This document shows, piece by piece, positions 19,789 through 30,751 of a stretch of 64,000 bases of DNA. The notes below the pieces were generated by a model. The model saw nothing but the letters and a program-made list of their open reading frames with translations. It searched no databases and had not been told where the DNA came from. How positions within the stretch are numbered: position 1 is the first letter of the stretch; every line of letters starts with the position of its first letter. The position numbers were made by a program, and so were the translations under genes. The DNA lies in NCBI GenBank assembly GCA_016194975.1, contig JACQAM010000004.1, forward strand, positions 62,001-126,000, written 5' to 3'. The stretch comes from Bacteroidota bacterium (GTDB lineage Bacteria; Bacteroidota; Bacteroidia; Palsa-965).

Positions 19789-20988
19789 ATGTACAGCCAC
19801 TACAAAGAATTTCTCCGGCAAGAATTAAGATCCATCGAAGAAGCCGGGCTCTTCAAACACGAACGCGTGATTACAACTCCGCAGGGAGCTGTGGTCACGG
19901 TCAACGGAAAAGAAGTAATTATTTTCTGCGCGAATAATTATCTCGGACTTTCTTCTCATCCAAAAGTAATTGCTGCTGCGCACAAAACGCTGGACGAACA
20001 CGGTTATGGAATGTCAAGCGTGCGTTTCATTTGCGGAACACAGGACATTCACAAAACGCTGGAAGAAAAAATTGCGAAGTTTCATCAGACGGAAGATACA
20101 ATTCTCTACGCCGCTTGCTTCGATGCGAACGGCGGAGTGTTCGAACCGCTCTTCGGGGAAAACGACGCGATCATTTCTGATGAACTCAATCACGCTTCTA
20201 TCATCGACGGCGTTCGTCTCTGCAAATCGCAGCGTTTCCGTTATAAGAATTCCGACATGAGTGATCTTGAAACGCAGTTGAAAGCTGCGGCGAATTGTCG
20301 TTTTAAAATAATTGTGACCGACGGCGTTTTTTCCATGGACGGATTTGTGGCGCCGATAAATAAGATCTGTGATCTCGCTGACAAATACAATGCGCTGGTG
20401 ATGGTGGATGAAAGTCACGCGACCGGTTTCATTGGGAAAACAGGGCGTGGTGCAACCGAAGCAAGTGGTGCAATGGGAAGAGTGGACATCATTACCGGAA
20501 CTTTAGGAAAAGCATTGGGCGGTGCGATGGGAGGATTCACCACCGGGAAAAAAGAAATTATTGAAATGTTGCGACAACGTTCCCGTCCGTATTTATTTTC
20601 CAATTCACTGGCACCTTCCATTGTGGGCGCATCCATTGCCGTGTTCGATATGCTGAGTGAAACCACAGCACTGCGCGACAAACTGGAAGGAAACGTGAAT
20701 TATTTCAAAGCGGGAATGGAAAAAATAGGTTTGGAATTCAGAAAAGGAGATTCAGCAATTGTTCCGGTCATGTTGTACGATGCAAAACTCGCGCAGCAGT
20801 TCGCCGAAAAATTACTCGACGAAGGAATTTACGTAATCGGATTTTTCTACCCGGTGGTTCCGAAAGGACAGGCGCGCATTCGCGTACAACTGAGCGCCGC
20901 GCACGAGAAAGAACATCTCGATAAAGCGATCGCTGCATTTGAGAAAGTTGGGAAAGAACTTTCGGTGATCAAGGAAAAAGTGAAATAG
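19789..20988 (+). CDS. kbl: Glycine C-acetyltransferase (2-amino-3-ketobutyrate CoA ligase)
   Basis: A PLP enzyme that cleaves 2-amino-3-ketobutyrate with CoA to glycine and acetyl-CoA in threonine breakdown. 399 residues. Alpha-oxoamine synthase hallmarks are present: [31 protein letters not shown] (the VRFICGTQ wording favours Kbl over BioF), [12 protein letters not shown], and the PLP lysine in [13 protein letters not shown] near residue 240. The C-terminus [19 protein letters not shown] is also Kbl-like. tdh is not adjacent. ATG at 19789. The same fold includes serine palmitoyltransferase, which is less likely given these motifs. Confidence 0.9.
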
Positions 20989-21085: not shown

Positions 21086-23089
21086 GTGATCCGCCGCATT
21101 CTTATTTTTCTTTTCCTCCCTGTTTTTCTTCACGCAGGAAAAACAGATACGCTCTCCGTTTTTTTTCAGAAAATTCCTCATGATACTTCCGGCGTGCGTT
21201 CGCTCATTAACATAGCAGAAGAAAAATCGCATACCGATAATGACGTTGCATTCCGTTGCTCGCAACAGTCGGTGCAATTGGCTTATGAACTGAACGAGCC
21301 CCGCGCAAAAACGGAAGCGCTTTTTTCACTGGGCGTCCGCTATATGAATGAAGGCGATTATGTGAATGCATCGAAAGATCTTTTTCCGGCGCTGAGTCTT
21401 GCCGACAGTATTCATTATGATGCGGGATTACTCATAGTGAATAACGGCATTGGTAATCTTTACGCACACCAGGATCTTTTCGCTGCTGCGGCTCCGTATT
21501 ATGAAAAAGCACTCACACTCTCGAGAAAATTGCACAATCGCATTAAGGAAGGAGTCATTCTCGGAAATCTCGGGAACATTTATTACATGCAGATTGATGA
21601 TCATCCCGAATATCTTCCGAAAGCAAAAGATTATTACGAGCAATACTTAAATATTGCTGTCGAAGAAAAAAATACTTCGCGAATGATCAGCGCGCTCAAC
21701 AATCTCGCTCTTGTTTACGGCGACATGGATAAATACGATACGGCGATCGCGCTCACAGATTCTGCAATGAAATATATTCTTGCGCTGAACGATAGTTCCA
21801 ATCTCGCTTATTCTTTTTCCAATTACGGACGATTTTACAGAATGAAAAACGAATTCGTCAAAGCGATCGGTTTCGTGAACAAAAGTATTGAGGTGTGCCG
21901 GAAACTTGAATTGAGTGATCTGCTCGCAACGAATTACCAGAGTCTGGCAATTTGTTATGAAGGAATGGGCGATTATAAAAATGCTTACCTGAATTCAGTC
22001 CGGTACGATACGCTTGAATTCAGTCTCATCAGTACTGCGAATGCAAATACGATAACCGATCTCAAGAATAAATTAGAAAGCGACCGGCAGCAGAACCAGA
22101 TCGATGAGCTGAAACAGAAAAATGAGATCGGCGATCTGCGAAACGGCCGTCAGAATCTTTTTCTCGCGATCGCTATTGGAGGATTCGTGCTGCTTGCCGC
22201 ATTTGCATTCCTGCTCTACAACCGTTACCGTGTAAAATCGGAATCAAATAAAAAACTGGAAGTGCAGAATGAGATCATCGCGGAAAAAAATAAAGACATT
22301 ACTGATAGCATCAACTATGCAAGCAAAATTCAGAATTCATTACTGACCAGTGAAGAGACGATGAAACTTCTGTTCAATGATTTTTTTGTTTTGTTTCTTC
22401 CACGCGATATTGTGAGCGGCGATTTCTGGTGGGTCACGAAAAAAGAAAATAAAATTTTTCTCTGCGCTGCCGATTGTACCGGGCACGGCGTTCCGGGCGC
22501 TTTCATGTCGCTGCTGAGCATTTCTTTTCTGAATGAAGCCGTGAATGAAAAAAATATCAATTCGCCCGCTGAGATATTCGGTTATGTGCGTGACCGCATC
22601 ATAGCATCACTCGGAACAAAAAGTAATTCGCAGAACAGTGATGGCATGGACGCCGTGCTGTGCTGCATTGACGAACAAACCCATGAAATTTCATTTGCTG
22701 CGGCGAATAATCCGCTGTGGATCGTGCGCAATGGAAAATGCATCGAATACAAAGCAGATAAAATGCCGGTGGGAAAACATTATGGTGAATCGCAGCCCTT
22801 CCGGCTCCAGCGATTGACTCCCGAAAAAAATGATGTAGTCTATCTTTTTTCCGATGGTTACGCCGATCAGTTCGGTGGTGAGCGCGCCCGCCTGACCGAT
22901 AAAAATAAATTCGGTTCATTCGGGCAGGGAAAAAAATTCAAGTACAAACCATTGCAGGAATTGCTGCTGAAAATTTCTTCACAACCTTTCGAAGAGCAGA
23001 AAAAAATTCTTGAACGGAACCACCTCGAATGGAAAGGAGAACTTGCGCAAGTGGATGATATTCTCGTGATGGGTTTCCGTATTTCCTGA
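21086..23089 (+). CDS. TPR sensor with SpoIIE/PP2C phosphatase, array member A
   Basis: A 667-residue signalling protein. GTG at 21086 opens a signal peptide (IRRILIFLFLPVFLHAG); the frame from 20996 adds 30 residues without family character. Periplasmic TPR units at about 45-330 (YDAGLLIVNNGIGNLYAHQ, MISALNNLALVYGDM, YSFSNYGRFYRM) lead to one membrane helix at about 356-376. A coiled coil with the linker EKNKDITDSINYASKIQNSLL follows, then a SpoIIE-type Ser/Thr phosphatase domain at about 425-667. Metal-binding motifs are intact: DIVSGDFWW, ADCTGHGVPGAFMSLL, DGMDAVLCC, YLFSDGYADQFGG and QVDDILVMG. Such proteins usually dephosphorylate anti-sigma-factor antagonists. First of five same-strand paralogues. 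TACTTTTA lies three bases before the start. Confidence 0.88.
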   Translation: MIRRILIFLFLPVFLHAGKTDTLSVFFQKIPHDTSGVRSLINIAEEKSHTDNDVAFRCSQQSVQLAYELNEPRAKTEALFSLGVRYMNEGDYVNASKDLFPALSLADSIHYDAGLLIVNNGIGNLYAHQDLFAAAAPYYEKALTLSRKLHNRIKEGVILGNLGNIYYMQIDDHPEYLPKAKDYYEQYLNIAVEEKNTSRMISALNNLALVYGDMDKYDTAIALTDSAMKYILALNDSSNLAYSFSNYGRFYRMKNEFVKAIGFVNKSIEVCRKLELSDLLATNYQSLAICYEGMGDYKNAYLNSVRYDTLEFSLISTANANTITDLKNKLESDRQQNQIDELKQKNEIGDLRNGRQNLFLAIAIGGFVLLAAFAFLLYNRYRVKSESNKKLEVQNEIIAEKNKDITDSINYASKIQNSLLTSEETMKLLFNDFFVLFLPRDIVSGDFWWVTKKENKIFLCAADCTGHGVPGAFMSLLSISFLNEAVNEKNINSPAEIFGYVRDRIIASLGTKSNSQNSDGMDAVLCCIDEQTHEISFAAANNPLWIVRNGKCIEYKADKMPVGKHYGESQPFRLQRLTPEKNDVVYLFSDGYADQFGGERARLTDKNKFGSFGQGKKFKYKPLQELLLKISSQPFEEQKKILERNHLEWKGELAQVDDILVMGFRIS

Positions 23090-23126
23090 CCCCAAAATTC
23101 ATTTTTTGTTTTCTTATCTTGCCGTT

Positions 23127-24356
23127 ATGTATTTCTCCGTTGAATGGCTGGAAGAACAGCTGAAGGCAACAAAGGATGAACGTGACCAGATCGATCTCGT
23201 ATGTGGGTTTGCTTTCAACGCTATCGATTTTCTCCTCGAAGAATGTAATTCATACGCGAAGAAATATTATGATGTTGCATTGAAGATCGGAAGTACGCGC
23301 GGGCAGGCGATGATGCTCATGTGCATGTCGTATTACCAGCGCGAAACCGGCAACATTACGGAGGCAGACCAATTGCTCGATCAGACAGAAGCACTGTTTG
23401 AATCGGACAGCGAAGGAGACTTTGGGCCTGCGCTGAGTTATTTTGCTGTGCATAACTGGATCCTCGGTAAAAGAGAAAAAGCTTTTAAGCAGGCATTTCA
23501 TTCCCGGCAGTTTGCAGAAAAAAATAATTCGAATTACGATCTGACGTGGTCTTCCTACCAGTTCGGCGTTTTTTATACCGATCTTAAAAATTATGAAGTG
23601 GCGCTGCAACATTTCAGGGAAGCCGAATTACGCGCACGCTCGCAGGGTGATACCTACGCACTTGCGCGATGTCTTTCGGGAATTGCGTTCATCGAAATTC
23701 AGCAGGGGAATTTTGAAGAAGCGCTCCAGATCAACGCGGAGTCGCTGGAGAATTATAAAAAATGCGGGCACAAAACCGGCGAGAGCCGTGCGCTCAATGA
23801 CCTCGGTGTATTGTATAAAAAACTGAAGCAGGATTCGGAAGCAGAAAAATATCTTACTCAAGCGCTGGAGCTGAGAATGGAATTGAAATACATCCAGGGA
23901 ATAATTACTTCTCAATTGGAACTTGCTGAACTTCACCTGCAGAATGGGAAAACGGGTGAGTCGAAAAAATTGCTTGAGTCTGCCCTGAAACTTTCTGAGG
24001 AAAGCGGCGCCAAATTAAAAGAGAGCCGCTGCAATAAAATGTTGTATGAAGTTTATAAAAAAGAACATGATGCAGAGAAAGCTCTTTTTTATTTCGAAAA
24101 ATTCTTTGAGGTGGAATCGCTGATCTCGGGCGAAGCAACTTCCAACCGTATCAGTTCTCTTCAGCAGAAATATGCAACGGAGAAAAGTGAACAGGAGGCA
24201 GAGATCCATCGCCTTAAAAATGTGGAATTGAAAAAACTGAATGAAGAGATCGAAGAAAAAAATAAAAATATTCTCGATTCCATTCATTACGCAAAACGCA
24301 TACAGGATTCTTTATTGCCGAATATGAAATACATTGAGCGGAACCTGAAAAAATAA
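23127..24356 (+). CDS. Cytosolic TPR protein ending at the phosphatase linker, array member B
   Basis: A 409-residue paralogue without signal peptide, membrane helix or phosphatase. ATG 23127 is chosen over TTG 23106. TPR units fill about residues 15-330 (ALARCLSGIAFIEIQQGNFEEAL, GESRALNDLGVLYKKL). A long coiled coil follows (SLQQKYATEKSEQEAEIHRL, then KKLNEEIEEKNKNIL). The last 25 residues are the signalling linker, with DSIHYAKRIQDSLLPNMKYI, that precedes the SpoIIE domain in members A, D and E. The protein then stops. The next gene starts 7 bases later, so no phosphatase remnant exists. It may pair with, and modulate, the phosphatase members through the coiled coil (inference). Confidence 0.8.
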   Translation: MYFSVEWLEEQLKATKDERDQIDLVCGFAFNAIDFLLEECNSYAKKYYDVALKIGSTRGQAMMLMCMSYYQRETGNITEADQLLDQTEALFESDSEGDFGPALSYFAVHNWILGKREKAFKQAFHSRQFAEKNNSNYDLTWSSYQFGVFYTDLKNYEVALQHFREAELRARSQGDTYALARCLSGIAFIEIQQGNFEEALQINAESLENYKKCGHKTGESRALNDLGVLYKKLKQDSEAEKYLTQALELRMELKYIQGIITSQLELAELHLQNGKTGESKKLLESALKLSEESGAKLKESRCNKMLYEVYKKEHDAEKALFYFEKFFEVESLISGEATSNRISSLQQKYATEKSEQEAEIHRLKNVELKKLNEEIEEKNKNILDSIHYAKRIQDSLLPNMKYIERNLKK

Positions 24357-24363
24357 TTTCTCC

Positions 24364-25803
24364 ATGCGTCGTATTTTATTTTTTTTATTTTTCCCGGTTC
24401 AACTGTTCTCCCAGCAGTCGAAGATCGATTCGCTTCAACGATTGATCGCGCACGACAAAGAAGACACGATGAAAGTGTTGCATCTCGATCGATTGAGCTG
24501 GCAACAACAGGAAATTGGCGCAATAGACAATGCAGTGAGATCGGGAAAGGAAGGCCTGGCGCTCGCACAAAAACTAAATTACACTTATGGAAAGATCAGT
24601 TGCCTGGTCGCAATCGGCGCGGTGAGTTATGTACAGAGCGATAATGCGACTGCACTTCTTTATTTCGATAAAGCATTTCATATTGCTGATTCCGCAAAAA
24701 ATAAAAAAGGGATTTCACTCGCCACAGCCGATCTCAGCATGGTTTACTACGACCAGGGCGACTATGCCCATGCGCTCGATTATATTCTGCGATCGGTGAA
24801 AATTGATGAAGAATCTCACGATGCTTCGGGCCTTGCAGTGAATTACGGGAACATCGGAAATATTTATCACCGGCAGGGCGATTCACGCAATGCACTTGCT
24901 TATCACCTGAAAGCGCTTCACCTCGATGATTCGCTGAAAGATGAGGAAGGATCCACTGCCGATCTTATCAATATTGCAATTGTGTATTCCGACATGAAGG
25001 ATTACGCGCAATCGAAATCATACAATGAAAAAGCGCTGAAGCTTGCAGAGAAAACAGACGATAAGAATGCTACTGCATCAGTGCTTGCAAATCTCGGCGA
25101 GAATTATTTTCATCTCGGGAATATTGACACCGCACTCACTTTCTATTTCCGTGCGCGTGACATTGATATTTCTATAGGCCAACTCGAATATTATTCGCGC
25201 ATCGAACAGAACATCGGTGAAGTTTATATGAAGAAAAAAGATTTTGCGGGAGCAGAAAAAACTTTTCTTTTTGCGCTGCATCTCGCCGACAGTCTCGGAT
25301 CGAATGAAGACATTAAAACAACAGATGAAATGCTCAGCGAATTATATTCGCAAACAGGTCAGTGGGAAAAAGCATTCAACGCGTACAAAAATTATTCAGC
25401 AGCTAAAGATTCGCTCGTGAATGAAGAGAAAAGCCGGGAGATAGGGCGGCTTGTTGCCAAATCTGATTTCGATAAACAACTTGCCGTTCAGCAGGAAGAT
25501 GCAAAACGGCTGCAGGATATTTCTGCGGAAGAAAACAAACGCCAGCGAATCTTATTGCTTTTCATTGCGGCGGTCGCACTGCTCATTACTTTCATTGCTG
25601 TCATCATTTTCAGATCGCTGCGAATTTCACGCAGGCAGAAATTGCTGATCGAAAAACAGAAACTCGCCGTGGAAGAGCAGAAATCACTGGTGGAAGAAAA
25701 AAACAAAGAGATTATTGACAGTATTCATTACGCAAAACGCATACAGGATTCTTTATTGCCGAATGAAAAATACATCGAGAAAAATATTTCACGGAAGAAC
25801 TGA
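24364..25803 (+). CDS. Membrane TPR sensor ending at the phosphatase linker, array member C
   Basis: A 479-residue paralogue: signal peptide (MRRILFFLFFPVQLFSQQ), about seven periplasmic TPR units (LAVNYGNIGNIYHRQGDSRNAL, ASVLANLGENYFHLGNID), a membrane helix at about 397-417, and a basic coiled coil (ISRRQKLLIEKQKLAVEEQK). It ends with the linker, DSIHYAKRIQDSLLPNEKYI, and a stop 6 residues later. It has the architecture of A and E minus the phosphatase. The 3' ends of B and C share the unusual stretch encoding SIHYAKRIQDSLLPN almost base for base, suggesting recent duplication or conversion. Seven bases separate it from B, so they are co-transcribed. Confidence 0.82.
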   Translation: MRRILFFLFFPVQLFSQQSKIDSLQRLIAHDKEDTMKVLHLDRLSWQQQEIGAIDNAVRSGKEGLALAQKLNYTYGKISCLVAIGAVSYVQSDNATALLYFDKAFHIADSAKNKKGISLATADLSMVYYDQGDYAHALDYILRSVKIDEESHDASGLAVNYGNIGNIYHRQGDSRNALAYHLKALHLDDSLKDEEGSTADLINIAIVYSDMKDYAQSKSYNEKALKLAEKTDDKNATASVLANLGENYFHLGNIDTALTFYFRARDIDISIGQLEYYSRIEQNIGEVYMKKKDFAGAEKTFLFALHLADSLGSNEDIKTTDEMLSELYSQTGQWEKAFNAYKNYSAAKDSLVNEEKSREIGRLVAKSDFDKQLAVQQEDAKRLQDISAEENKRQRILLLFIAAVALLITFIAVIIFRSLRISRRQKLLIEKQKLAVEEQKSLVEEKNKEIIDSIHYAKRIQDSLLPNEKYIEKNISRKN

Positions 25804-25826
25804 ACCTTTCTATTTTTTCATTGCGA

Positions 25827-28151
25827 ATGAGAACTTTTTTAGCGGCACTATTATTTTTTCAGTTCACAGCGTTCCTGCAGGCGCAGCAGGATAAAACCGA
25901 TTCGCTGGAAGCGGCGGCAGAAAAAATGCCCGACGGGACCGCGCGCGTGGATGCGTGGAATCAGCTCAGCCGCGAATTGCTTTACACGGATGAGTATAAA
26001 TGCGCCGATTATTTTTCGCAGGCCGGACAACTTTCAAAAAAAATAAATTATAAGAAAGGCCTCGCACGTGCAACCACCCTGCGTGCAAACCTGTATCTCG
26101 TGAAGAACAAATCAGACAGCGCGCTTTCTTTTTATCTCGACGCGTTGAAAATTTACGGAGCCATTAATGACAAAGACGGGGAAGCATCTGTTTACCAGGA
26201 TATCGGTTTGCTCGATTATTACCAGGGCGATCTGAAAAATTCTTCCGACAATTTCAATCTCGCCCTCGGTATTTATTCCAGTACCGCAGATTCGGCCGGC
26301 ATGTGCGAGGTCATGAATAACATGGGCGTTGTTCAGTTTGCAACTCATGATAATGCAAATGCGCTGAAAAATTATTTTGCTGCACTGGCTTTAAGTGAAC
26401 GCATCGGCAATACCGACGCGCAATTGAATTCACTGAACAATATCGGGAGTTATTATAAAGCAGAAGGAGATTTTGAAAAAGCGATCTCCTATTACCAGCA
26501 GACGGTTAACATCAGCCAAAAAAAATCGGACAACAGGGGAATTGCATTGGCGCTGGTAAATCTTTCTTCTGTTTACGGCGATCAGAAAAATTATGACAAG
26601 AGTATTGAGTTTGCACTGAACGCCGAAAGCTATGCGGAAAAAGCCAACGCTACCGATCTTAAAAAAAATATCTACCAGTCGCTTGCCATGTCCTACGCTT
26701 TCAAAGGCGATTATGAAAAAGCGTTCGGCGCACAGCAGGATTATACAAACGCTTCGGAAAAATTATTGAACGAAAAAAATCTTCAGCTCACGCGCGACCT
26801 CGAAGCAAAATATAAAAGTGAGCAGAATAAAAAACAAATTTCGGAACTGAATAAAGAAAATAAAATCGGTACGCTTACCATTTACATCATCTCAGCCGGA
26901 CTCATCCTGCTCTTCATTATCGCCCTTTTCGTTTACACCCGTTATCGTGCCAACAGGAAAACTGCTTCCATTCTCGCAGCACAGAAATCACTCATCGAAG
27001 TAAAGAATACCGAACTCGAACGATTGTCCATCGTGGCGCGTTCCACCGAGAATATCGTTCTCATCATGAATGCGCAGGGAGAAATAGAATGGGCGAATGA
27101 AAGTTTTGCGAGATGGAACGGCATCACGATCGAAGAACTGAAAGCGAAAAAAGGGAAAACAATTTTCGAGATCAGTAATAATCCGCGGGTAAGAGCTATC
27201 GTGGATGAAGCAGTACGCGAAAAAAAATCGATTGTGTACGAGTCACTCAATAAAAATCCGGAAGGCGGATCCATCTGGGAATCATCAACACTCACTCCTG
27301 TATTCGGTGAAAACGGAATGCTCCAGCGACTGATCATCGTGGATACGGATATTACACAGCGAAAAAAAGACGAAGAGATCATTCAGCAGAAAAATAAAGA
27401 CATCACCGACAGCATCACGTACGCGCGGCGCATACAGGAAGCCATTTTGCCGCCGGAAAAAATTATCAGCCGGCTGCTTCCCGAATCATTCGTTCTCTAT
27501 AAACCGAAAGATATTGTGAGCGGAGATTTTTATTGGATTGAACAATGGGGTGATGCGGTTCTTGTTGCTGCAGTGGATTGCACGGGCCATGGCGTTCCCG
27601 GCGCATTCATGTCGCTGTTGGGATATAACCTGATGAACCAGGCGCTGAACGAATTCGGGTTGAACAAACCTTCGCTGATGTTGAATGCCGTGAGTAAAAA
27701 TCTCTCTAAAATTCTGCGTACTGCAGGCGACGGAACTTCCGTGAAGGATGGTATGGATATCGCACTCTGTTCCATTGACCGGAAAAAAATGATCCTTGAA
27801 TTTTCAGGCGCATACAATCCTGCGTGGATCATACGCGATGGAAAAAGAATTGAACTGGCAGGCGATAAATTTCCGGTCGGTGCTTTTGTGAATGACGGAA
27901 ATCTTTTTTCGAATAAGGAATTCCCATTGGAGAAAAACGATTGCATTTATATTTTCACCGACGGTTACGCCGATCAGTTCGGTGGGCCAAGGGGGAAAAA
28001 ATTCAAATACAAACAACTTGAAGAATTATTACTGAAGATCCACCGCGAAAAAATGAGCGAGCAGAAAAGGATACTTGAAAAAGAAATTCTTGAATGGAAA
28101 GGCGGACTGGATCAGATCGATGATATTCTTGTCATCGGTATCCGCTGCTGA
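25827..28151 (+). CDS. TPR-PAS-SpoIIE/PP2C phosphatase sensor, array member D
   Basis: A 774-residue signalling protein. ATG 25827 (MRTFLAALLFFQFTAFLQAQ) is preferred to TTG 25821. Order: signal peptide, periplasmic TPR units (about 50-315), membrane helix at about 350-370, coiled coil, a PAS domain at about 395-515 (STENIVLIMNAQGEIEWANE, GITIEELKAKKGKTIFEI, VDTDITQRKKDEE), linker DSITYARRIQEAILP, then the SpoIIE phosphatase to the C-terminus. DIVSGDFYW, VDCTGHGVPGAFMSLLG, KDGMDIALC, IFTDGYADQFGG and QIDDILVIG keep the metal ligands. It is the only array member with a PAS domain, so it may integrate a second, cytoplasmic signal. Confidence 0.88.
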   Translation: MRTFLAALLFFQFTAFLQAQQDKTDSLEAAAEKMPDGTARVDAWNQLSRELLYTDEYKCADYFSQAGQLSKKINYKKGLARATTLRANLYLVKNKSDSALSFYLDALKIYGAINDKDGEASVYQDIGLLDYYQGDLKNSSDNFNLALGIYSSTADSAGMCEVMNNMGVVQFATHDNANALKNYFAALALSERIGNTDAQLNSLNNIGSYYKAEGDFEKAISYYQQTVNISQKKSDNRGIALALVNLSSVYGDQKNYDKSIEFALNAESYAEKANATDLKKNIYQSLAMSYAFKGDYEKAFGAQQDYTNASEKLLNEKNLQLTRDLEAKYKSEQNKKQISELNKENKIGTLTIYIISAGLILLFIIALFVYTRYRANRKTASILAAQKSLIEVKNTELERLSIVARSTENIVLIMNAQGEIEWANESFARWNGITIEELKAKKGKTIFEISNNPRVRAIVDEAVREKKSIVYESLNKNPEGGSIWESSTLTPVFGENGMLQRLIIVDTDITQRKKDEEIIQQKNKDITDSITYARRIQEAILPPEKIISRLLPESFVLYKPKDIVSGDFYWIEQWGDAVLVAAVDCTGHGVPGAFMSLLGYNLMNQALNEFGLNKPSLMLNAVSKNLSKILRTAGDGTSVKDGMDIALCSIDRKKMILEFSGAYNPAWIIRDGKRIELAGDKFPVGAFVNDGNLFSNKEFPLEKNDCIYIFTDGYADQFGGPRGKKFKYKQLEELLLKIHREKMSEQKRILEKEILEWKGGLDQIDDILVIGIRC

Positions 28152-28179
28152 CCGGAAGAAACGCACAGTTTTGTTTTGC

Positions 28180-28187
28180 TACTTTTG
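28180..28187 (+). promoter_or_regulatory. -7 box just before array member E
   Basis: TACTTTTG matches TAnnTTTG and ends four bases before the ATG at 28192. If it is used, the mRNA would start at or next to the start codon (leaderless). No TTTG stands at the expected 19-bp spacing upstream, so the promoter is only partly supported. Confidence 0.35.
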
Positions 28188-28191
28188 ACGC

Positions 28192-30132
28192 ATGCGTATC
28201 GCATTTTTTTCTTTTTTACTTTTCTTTCCGATCATTGTGAATGCACAGGAAAAAGACCGGCTGCACAGGAATCTCGTACTGATAAAAACAAATATTGAGG
28301 ATACTACGCGTGCGGTTGCGCTGAATGATATTGGCTGGGATACGAGTTATGAAAATCTTGCTGTGGGTTTGAAATACTGCGAAGAAGCGCTTGAACTTTC
28401 ACGGAAGATCAATTTTCCGAAGGGAATGATACTTGCTTACAATAGTCTTGGAACGATTTACGAAGACATGGGCGAATACAATAAAGCCATTGACTCACAC
28501 AATCGTTGTTTGCAGATCGCCGATTCTATTGGCAACCGTTACAACCAGGCCACTTCGTGGATGAATCTTTCATTGGTGTACAAAACACTCAGGGAGAAAA
28601 AAAAGGCGTACGACTGTGCGAGCCGCTCGCTCAGTATTTATCTTGAATTGAAATCGAAACGCGGGCTGGCTGTTGTCTATAATAATCTCGGTTCAATTTA
28701 TCTTGACATTGACAGTCTTGATAAAGCCATTGATGCATTTACAACTTCACTTCGTTATGCGCGCGAATTAAAACGTCCCGATTATGAAGCGCACGCGCTT
28801 AGCGGACTTTCTTCCGTTTACATTCAGAAAGGAGATTCTGTTCGTTCGGAGATGCTCATCAACCGCTGTATTGCTATTCTTGATTCCATGCAGGATGATT
28901 ATGATAAAGCGCAGGCAATTTACGATCACGGTTACCTGCTTTTCCGTTTTCATCATTACAAGGATGCAGAAACAAAATATATGGAAGCGATGGATCTTTT
29001 CCGGATGATCGGGATGACGGAACAGGAAAAGGAAACATGGCTGAGTCTTTCTGATTTGTATGAAGCGATGAATGATCCGCAGCGATCACTCGATGCTTTG
29101 AAAAAATATGATGCGATGAAAGATTCACTTCTCAATGAAAAAGTGCTGCGCCATCAGCGCGAACTCGAAGCGCTTTATGACAGCGAACGATCGGCGAGCC
29201 GCATCCGTCAGCTGGAAGCCGATGGAAAACTCACGAATACTTATGTAACTGCTTTGGTTGCCGGCGTATTTTTATTGCTGATCATACTTTTCATTCTTTA
29301 CAACCGGAATAAACTGCGAAGGAAAACCAATGATCAACTCACGGAAAAAAATGCGATCATCGGTGAAAAAAATAAAAATATTACCGACAGCATCACGTAC
29401 GCGCGCAGGATACAGGAAGCTGTTTTGCCCGATCCCGACCTGCTTCTCAAAAATTTTAGCGATTCATTTATTTTCTATTTACCGCGCGATATTGTGAGTG
29501 GCGATTTCTGGTGGTTCACGGAGAATGAAGGAAAATTTTTTCTTGCGGTGGCCGATTGTACCGGGCACGGTGTTCCCGGTGGATTCATGAGTGTAATGGG
29601 TGCTGCATTTCTTTCGGAGATCATCGTCGAAAAAAAAGTGACGGATCCCGGCGGAATACTGAATGCGCTGCGCGATAAAGTCATTCGAGCGCTGCATCAC
29701 GAGGGCGATGAGAATAAATCGGTGCGCGATGGAATGGATATGGTGATGTGCATTTTCAATTCCGATAAAACAAAAGTGGATTTTGCATGTGCGAATAATC
29801 CGTTGTGGCTGGTGCGTGATGGAAAACTAACTGCATTTGAAACGGATAATTTTCCTGTGGGCGTTCATGAAGGAGAAATGAAATCATTCCGTTCACATTC
29901 TGTTTCACTTTGCAAAAATGATATGCTGTATATGTTCACCGATGGATTTGCAGATCAGTTTGGTGGCAAAGACGGAAAAAAATATAAGTACAGGCAGATG
30001 AAAGAACTCGTTGTTCATCTTTCGGAAATGAATGGAAAAGAACAACACGAAAAAATTGAAACTGAATTCCATGATTGGAAAAATGAACTCGAACAGGTAG
30101 ATGATGTATTGGTTGTAGGAATAAGGATTTGA
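28192..30132 (+). CDS. TPR sensor with SpoIIE/PP2C phosphatase, array member E
   Basis: A 646-residue member of the array: signal peptide (MRIAFFSFLLFFPIIVNAQ), periplasmic TPR units at about 45-315 (GMILAYNSLGTIYEDMGEYNKA, LAVVYNNLGSIYLDIDSLDKA), a membrane helix at about 347-367, linker DSITYARRIQEAVLPDPDLL, then a complete SpoIIE phosphatase. Metal sites are intact: DIVSGDFWW, ADCTGHGVPGGFMSVMG, DGMDMVMC, MFTDGFADQFGG and QVDDVLVVG. It is the last gene of the array; 154 bases separate it from the rplM operon, with a bulged hairpin at about 30138-30176 that could be a weak terminator. No kinase or anti-anti-sigma target lies nearby. Confidence 0.88.
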   Translation: MRIAFFSFLLFFPIIVNAQEKDRLHRNLVLIKTNIEDTTRAVALNDIGWDTSYENLAVGLKYCEEALELSRKINFPKGMILAYNSLGTIYEDMGEYNKAIDSHNRCLQIADSIGNRYNQATSWMNLSLVYKTLREKKKAYDCASRSLSIYLELKSKRGLAVVYNNLGSIYLDIDSLDKAIDAFTTSLRYARELKRPDYEAHALSGLSSVYIQKGDSVRSEMLINRCIAILDSMQDDYDKAQAIYDHGYLLFRFHHYKDAETKYMEAMDLFRMIGMTEQEKETWLSLSDLYEAMNDPQRSLDALKKYDAMKDSLLNEKVLRHQRELEALYDSERSASRIRQLEADGKLTNTYVTALVAGVFLLLIILFILYNRNKLRRKTNDQLTEKNAIIGEKNKNITDSITYARRIQEAVLPDPDLLLKNFSDSFIFYLPRDIVSGDFWWFTENEGKFFLAVADCTGHGVPGGFMSVMGAAFLSEIIVEKKVTDPGGILNALRDKVIRALHHEGDENKSVRDGMDMVMCIFNSDKTKVDFACANNPLWLVRDGKLTAFETDNFPVGVHEGEMKSFRSHSVSLCKNDMLYMFTDGFADQFGGKDGKKYKYRQMKELVVHLSEMNGKEQHEKIETEFHDWKNELEQVDDVLVVGIRI

Positions 30133-30286: not shown

Positions 30287-30751
30287 GTGGATACCTTGTC
30301 ATACAAAACGATTTCTGCTAATAAAGCAACTGTGCAAAAAGGATGGTTGCTTGTTGATGCAGAAAATGAGACTGTAGGCCGCCTCGCTTCTAAAGTGGCG
30401 TACCTCGTTCGCGGAAAACACAAAACTTCCTATACACCACACGTGGATTGCGGAGATAATGTGGTGATCATCAATGCCGATAAAGTTCGTTTCACCGGTA
30501 AAAAAGGATCAGAAAAAGTTTATACACGCTATACCGGATATCCGGGTGGACAGCGATTCGCAACTGCGAAAGAATTATTCGCATCCAAACCTGAACGTAT
30601 TCTTGAACTCGCGATCAATCGCATGTTGCCGAAAACGCGTCTCGGGGAAAAACTCCAGCGCAATGTTTTCATTTACGCTGGAAACGAACACATGCAGGAA
30701 GCGCAGAATCCAAAAAAAATAGATCTCAAGACAATTAAAGAGCGCAAATAA
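30287..30751 (+). CDS. rplM: Large-subunit ribosomal protein uL13
   Basis: 154 residues; binds 23S rRNA early in 50S assembly. GTG at 30287 gives MDTLSYKTISANKATVQKGW, the usual N-terminus of the phylum. Family blocks GRLASKVAYLVRGKHKT, NADKVRFTGKK, RYTGYPGG and INRMLPKTRLGEKL are present. First gene of rplM-rpsI-rpsB-tsf; its stop shares a base with the rpsI ATG. Confidence 0.97.
   Translation: MDTLSYKTISANKATVQKGWLLVDAENETVGRLASKVAYLVRGKHKTSYTPHVDCGDNVVIINADKVRFTGKKGSEKVYTRYTGYPGGQRFATAKELFASKPERILELAINRMLPKTRLGEKLQRNVFIYAGNEHMQEAQNPKKIDLKTIKERK

Follow-up and report, generated by a model that had tools for sequence, protein, structure and literature searches.

A tandem receptor array in a Bacteroidota genome that appears to mix complete SiaA-type phosphatases with sensor subunits of a split phosphatase

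Current models place the activation of PPM phosphatases that are dimerised through a helical linker within a single polypeptide. The closest described example for the locus discussed here is SiaA of Pseudomonas aeruginosa, part of the SiaABCD threonine phosphorylation pathway, a single polypeptide in which the linker (KKIGDSLDYASLIQRAILP) is followed by the PPM domain, and whose homodimer interface is made of the helices alpha1, alpha2 and alpha3 (PMC7647112). Other examples are RsbU with RsbT and RsbP with RsbQ in Bacillus subtilis, in which a coiled-coil linker that dimerises the phosphatase is likewise the control element; linker dimerisation switches the RsbU-type phosphatases and has been proposed as a general mechanism (PMC12143880). 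Here we describe an array of five receptor genes, A to E (Table 1), in the genome of a Bacteroidota bacterium (GCA_016194975.1), in which the linker and the PPM domain of SiaA are found both joined and apart. The array lies in a window of 64,000 nucleotides, by which we mean the whole stretch that was analysed (contig JACQAM010000004.1, our contig C4, window positions being C4 coordinates minus 62000; G000 denotes this genome, and other G numbers the genomes compared with it). Our reading, to which we give a probability of about 0.7, is that two layers of a single SiaA-type network come together in the array, with B and C as sensor subunits of a split phosphatase whose catalytic subunit is encoded elsewhere in the genome.

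The original prediction of five same-strand genes with a common linker is borne out by the open reading frames, by an alignment with 12 invariant positions in the linker motif of all five genes, and by a hidden Markov model (HMM) built from the five linkers, which scores 83-87 bits on each. With these scores, and as the linkers are far more alike (47-84% identity) than the sensor parts of A to E (18-28%), the sharing of the linker cannot be put down to chance; B and C, for example, have 84% identity in the linker against 24% in the sensor. The predicted modular architectures of A, D and E were also recovered, with Pfam matches to TPRs in all five proteins, to SpoIIE (PF07228) in A, D and E and to PAS in D, and the same scan of the window proteins gave no SpoIIE or phosphatase match in B or C. 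A simple hydropathy scan found a transmembrane (TM) helix in every protein but B, which has no hydrophobic segment, in agreement with the cytosolic B and the membrane-bound C of the prediction. In addition, the N-termini of A and E are hydrophobic, and those of C and D resemble signal peptides by eye. The TPR sensor of C (window 24364-25800) matches the model of the FimS histidine kinase of Porphyromonas with 116 bits and is of the same type as the FimS-type TPR sensor kinases of Bacteroidota, while A to E have no histidine kinase domain; this match suggests that one sensor type may be common to kinases and phosphatases.

The relationship to SiaA is apparent from both sequence and predicted structure. 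A profile of the linked linker-PPM region matches SiaA-PP2C of P. aeruginosa (PDB 6K4E) with 227 bits, linker included, and SpoIIE, RssB and RsbX with only 25-32 bits (3w40, RsbX, being a weak match). The NCBIfam SiaA model is the best model for E and for a PPM domain that is encoded on its own on contig C9 (the free PPM), and it is matched over positions 389-657 by E, 437-657 by the free PPM and 377-430 by B, the last match being weak (18.6 bits). As E, the free PPM and a propeller-linker-PPM protein of contig C7 score 170, 116 and 211 bits with the SiaA equivalog model NF038263, far below its cut-off of 700, they have a homologous domain but are not the same protein as SiaA. The AlphaFold2 model of residues 340-646 of E (predicted local distance difference test, pLDDT, 94) consists of one helix (2-72) running through the TM segment, the coiled coil and alpha1, followed by a short alpha2 (76-82, PDLLLKN, in the place where the proteins ending in a linker carry EKYIxKN) and by beta1 (86-91), while the model of the free PPM (pLDDT 82) starts with beta1, and 6K4E is the closest structure (rank 1) in fold searches with both models. 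A, D and E carry helices alpha1 and alpha2 fused to the N-terminal side of the catalytic domain, B, C and the free PPM do not, and the split parts are not classed as SiaA, since B and C are without the PPM domain and the free PPM is without the helices. Thus, what is a single polypeptide in SiaA is here found also as separate genes, and, given the three-helix interface of SiaA, proteins such as B and C would hold two of the interface helices and the free enzyme the third.

The census of linkers, a linker-profile search of the whole genome combined with a reading of the regions around the matches, gave 53 strong copies. In 29 of these a PPM domain follows; the other 24 (orphan linkers) lie at the C-terminus, with 0-9 residues left to the end of the protein. 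The Pfam model search found 31 SpoIIE domains in the genome; an apparent frame of 24,677 amino acids ending in SpoIIE (C5:78072-78740, L051) is an artefact and not a giant gene, as the 18001 bases there hold a masked run of 8000 N. With 29 linker-phosphatase proteins in this one genome, and with arrays in relatives, the earlier assumption that TPR-SpoIIE proteins occur singly in Bacteroidota does not hold. Orphans form arrays as well, eight frames at C22:129-138 kb, four at C7:65.6-69.8 kb and two on C20, besides B and C here. They are not tied to TPR sensors, since they are also found at the C-termini of a protein with a weak 7TMR-DISM match, of multi-TM proteins and of a MORN-repeat protein (L043:5051-6616, L047:3552-4373, L048:6919-7605 and L049:2942-3811). 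After the common core DSIxYAxRIQxxLP, the orphans keep a tail of their own, (T/N)EKYIxKNL, with 3.5-3.9 bits of information per EKYI position in 51 orphans versus 0.9-1.7 in 58 linked linkers, and with 55% identity in the segment after LP versus 17% in the linked linkers. The orphan sensor parts average 32% identity versus 69% for the orphan linkers. Judged by sequence, B and C are members of a large separate class of linker-terminated proteins, 24 strong in this genome, and not locally decayed genes, which corrects their earlier description as modular losses.

The free PPM of this genome (C9:5039-5782) has no linker and starts MSTTATATETRNFFILYKPKDIVSGDF, directly at beta1. In a first set of 21 genomes searched with the C9 protein, short-frame orthologues were found only in G001, G018 and G026, where orphans were also seen. 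A profile search of 396 Bacteroidia genomes found the free PPM exactly once in each of 25, in frames of 236-277 amino acids scoring 395-481 bits, the next matches scoring at most 362 bits and lying almost all inside long multidomain frames. The free PPMs start within 5-19 residues of FFI at beta1, and in a tree of 26 free and 72 linked PPMs the two are split by one single branch (support 70). The 26 free PPMs carry the SGDF, DCTGHG, DG and DD motifs without variation, A, D and E have these motifs as well, and the metal-coordinating residues (SiaA D457, D474, G477, D600, G601 and D653) are found in A, D, E and the free PPMs alike; the free PPMs have in addition private conserved positions (F13, H33, E41, E98, E102 and C110). 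RsbX is likewise a small single-domain PPM without a sensor, albeit much more distant in sequence, and it is not known to be accompanied by a family of linker-only sensors.

Orphans and the free PPM tend to be found in the same genomes. Reading of the loci revealed orphan linkers in all 25 genomes with a free PPM, and in the 396-genome set the best orphan-linker scores fell in these same genomes. Among genomes without the free PPM, no orphans were seen at the best linker loci of G104, G202, G390, G017 and G280, nor at the inspected linkers of G003, G005, G008-G011 and G037, all of these linkers being joined to a PPM domain, including those inspected in G104, which is linker-rich and yet has no free PPM. 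For the inspected genomes (25, 0; 1, 12), with G375 (see below) as the one exception, Fisher's exact test gives 4.8e-9, a value that treats genomes as independent and refers to the inspected loci only. The two are also often neighbors: in 12 of the 26 cases an orphan frame directly precedes the free PPM in the same orientation (G001, G317, G266, G018, G292, G100, G067, G128, G044, G379, G177 and L010, a contig of a metagenome-assembled genome), the upstream frames being short in G266, G177 and G292, and orphans being present also on the 3' side in G044, G379 and L010. At an assumed 1% per gene, the chance of such adjacency in 12 of 26 cases is about 1e-17.

These patterns point to a model in which A, D and E would act as self-contained receptors, each with a periplasmic TPR sensor (plus PAS in D), a TM helix, a coiled coil continuous with alpha1-alpha2, and a PPM domain, while B and C carry alpha1-alpha2 and stop at the loop before beta1, C9:5039-5782 encoding the complementary domain from beta1 onward. 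The coiled-coil dimer of an orphan sensor would present alpha1-alpha2 to two free catalytic subunits, rebuilding a SiaA-like dimer interface (alpha1-alpha2-alpha3), presumably activating rather than inhibiting the enzyme, and signals, presumably ligands, received by the TPRs would alter the coiled coil and hence the phosphatase activity. The free PPM, encoded on another contig, is their likely partner in the case of B and C, in place of A, D and E or besides them. This differs from RsbU and RsbP, in which the linker is covalently attached and is bound by a partner protein, whereas here the linker itself would come from another protein. It also differs from SiaA in that about 24 sensor genes, mostly with TPRs but also of the 7TM and MORN types, occur per one catalytic gene, so that many different sensors may address one shared enzyme. 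For Bacteroidia in general, we consider it somewhat more probable than its opposite that tens of interchangeable sensors give dimerisation and activation helices in trans to one shared incomplete PPM, which would make this the serine/threonine-phosphatase analogue of the many chemoreceptors per CheA.

Several observations weigh against this proposal. The free PPM of this genome adjoins no orphan gene, and the draft genome G375 has an orphan-linker frame of 94 amino acids, while a free PPM was not found there. The genomes without a free PPM were judged by their best or shortest-frame linker loci, not exhaustively, and the support for a single origin of the free PPMs is modest (SH-aLRT 70 in a quick tree). 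When 393 genomes drawn separately from across the phylum were searched, the free PPM was recovered only in this genome, so its distribution is patchy. The link to SiaC, discussed below, comes from homology and co-presence.

An alternative that we regard as improbable, although the strongest of those weighed, is that B and C pair with A, D, E and other linked receptors in mixed coiled-coil dimers and, serving as decoys or additional inputs, damp or retune these receptors, the free PPM being a separate enzyme. The core linker is common to all these proteins, linker dimerisation is a known control element (PMC12143880), B and C are located between A and D, and 29 linked partners are available in the genome. 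However, many-receptor genomes without the free PPM (for example G104, G202 and G390) show, at the inspected loci, only linked linkers, which mixed dimers do not predict, and the orphan-specific EKYI tail is not found in linked linkers. Far less probable still is that B and C are remnants of TPR phosphatases, truncated and in decay, that serve no signalling purpose. Short or broken orphan frames do exist (74 amino acids in L037, 94 in G375 and 95 in G266), and receptor loci quickly gain and lose genes, but most orphans are intact, with 400-600 amino acids, their motif is kept across families while their sensors diverge (32% versus 69% identity, as above), and the gaps after B (7 bases, up to C) and after C (approximately 17-23 bases, up to D) leave no room for a phosphatase remnant. 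The orphan-specific conservation and the closest relatives of C, which lie elsewhere (see below), likewise speak against B and C having arisen from A, D or E by decay in place.

As to the output, the original prediction had correctly noted that no anti-sigma or STAS gene is adjacent, but had left the output unassigned, for which the relationship to SiaA and the presence of SiaB and SiaC elsewhere in the genome now offer a candidate. The genome encodes a SiaB-family kinase (NF038262, 165 bits, cut-off 85) and a SiaC-family phosphoprotein (PF09345, 150 bits). On contig C7, the gene of the propeller-linker-PPM protein is followed by one lipoprotein-like gene and then by the SiaB-family kinase and a SiaC protein. 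Four SiaC genes are present in total, a second one having a SiaB-like neighbor by eye, and two (L272:5041-5433 and L271:4536-4907) being without an obvious SiaB neighbor. Among 35 genomes tested, SiaC was found in 31, including all 25 with the free PPM, and was not found in four, the four without linker hits. As the phosphatases resemble SiaA and not SpoIIE or RsbU, and as SiaB and SiaC are encoded in the genome, phospho-SiaC is their likely substrate on grounds of homology, and the phosphatases would remove the phosphate placed on a SiaC-family protein by a SiaB-family kinase. A classical partner switch of the RsbV/RsbW type, in which the array would dephosphorylate STAS proteins, seems to us a poor contender, somewhat behind the mixed dimers. 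The genome search did reveal a single clear RsbW-like protein that stands alone and two STAS proteins whose phosphorylation position is Ser/Thr, but their genes are on other contigs than the array, the array has neither RsbU or SpoIIE as its closest homologs nor RsbV or RsbW genes next to it, and an anti-sigma/STAS output was set aside, the relationship to SiaA (227 bits versus 25-32 for SpoIIE, RssB and RsbX) being far stronger and SiaB and SiaC homologs lying near a linked phosphatase gene on C7. A separate protein, the single classical-looking GAF-SpoIIE (C11:18083-18649, L025:4075-5319), encoded near an elongation-factor-P-like gene and without DQFGG, looks like the RsbU-type enzyme of this genome and is a possible partner of the RsbW-like and STAS proteins. 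The RsbW-like kinase gene (L029:1456-1881, C22:98286) adjoins ybeY, and the STAS genes stand in the orders fur-like/STAS/purA-like and pyrB-like/STAS (L035, L036).

The surroundings of the array are variable, the number of such genes in relatives ranging from 0 to 4 or 5. Between the KBL-like aminotransferase gene and rplM, three phosphatase genes are found in G003 and G007, one in G006 and G008, and none in G011, while G005 has two in the gap and one more before KBL, plus several other genes, and in G001 a different gene precedes rplM. In G002, the E-like gene at this locus is in three frames (L119:11912-13507), being either a decayed receptor or an assembly error. Positional orthologs of A are present in G003 and G007, and of E in G003, G005, G006 and G007; B and C have none there in the relatives compared and stand at this locus only in this genome. 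The nearest matches to the sensor part of C are linker-only genes, in other families and in the C22 array of this genome. With the varying gap content, the lack of positional orthologs of B and C and the position of the relatives of C elsewhere, we infer that receptor genes are gained and lost in tandem at this locus and that linker-only genes have entered it; the proposal that the five genes make one joint unit is not supported.

Table 1. Features of the receptor array and its borders (window positions).
Feature	Position	Strand	Basis
KBL-like aminotransferase gene, left border of the variable receptor locus	19789..20988	+	
Gene A: hydrophobic N-terminus, TPR, TM, coiled coil, linker, PPM phosphatase	21086..23089	+	GTG start at 21086, frame open from 20996; Pfam, hydropathy scan
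Linker of A (alpha1-alpha2)	22259..22384	+	Linker HMM
PPM catalytic domain of A	22445..23086	+	Pfam
Gene B: TPR protein without TM helix, orphan linker at C-terminus, without phosphatase	23127..24356	+	Open reading frame 23106-24356, ATG at 23127
Orphan linker, C-terminus of B	24231..24353	+	Linker HMM and locus reading
Gene C: signal-peptide-like N-terminus, TPR, TM, coiled coil, C-terminal orphan linker, without phosphatase	24364..25803	+	
Orphan linker, C-terminus of C	25672..25800	+	Linker HMM and locus reading
Gene D: TPR, TM, PAS, linker, PPM phosphatase	25827..28151	+	ATG at 25827; TTG possible at 25821
Linker of D (alpha1-alpha2)	27363..27488	+	Linker HMM
PPM catalytic domain of D	27552..28148	+	Pfam
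Gene E: hydrophobic N-terminus, TPR, TM, coiled coil, linker, PPM phosphatase	28192..30132	+	
Linker of E (alpha1-alpha2)	29341..29466	+	Linker HMM, AlphaFold2 model
PPM catalytic domain of E	29527..30129	+	Pfam, AlphaFold2 model
rplM (ribosomal protein L13), right border of the variable receptor locus	30287..30751	+	

In a promoter scan bearing on co-transcription, a clear -7 element was found only before E (TACTTTTG, window 28180-28194), ending 4 nucleotides 5' of the E ATG. Genes A, B and D have looser -7 matches at the same place, which would mean very short leaders or none.

In conclusion, the general idea of a multi-input module with hetero-assembly through the linkers appears to have been right, but not with the five genes as the unit. 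A description of such a split arrangement was not found in the searchable literature, including that on TPR-SpoIIE proteins in Bacteroidota and on split PP2C phosphatases. If the proposal is correct, the natural split at the alpha2-beta1 loop would provide a direct natural test of the model of activation within one chain, as control helices could be combined freely with the catalytic domain. It would also mean that inputs may be expanded cheaply, by duplicated sensor-plus-helix genes addressing one enzyme, and it would provide a likely pathway, that of SiaB and SiaC, for a large set of Bacteroidota proteins in which Pfam recognises nothing but TPRs.

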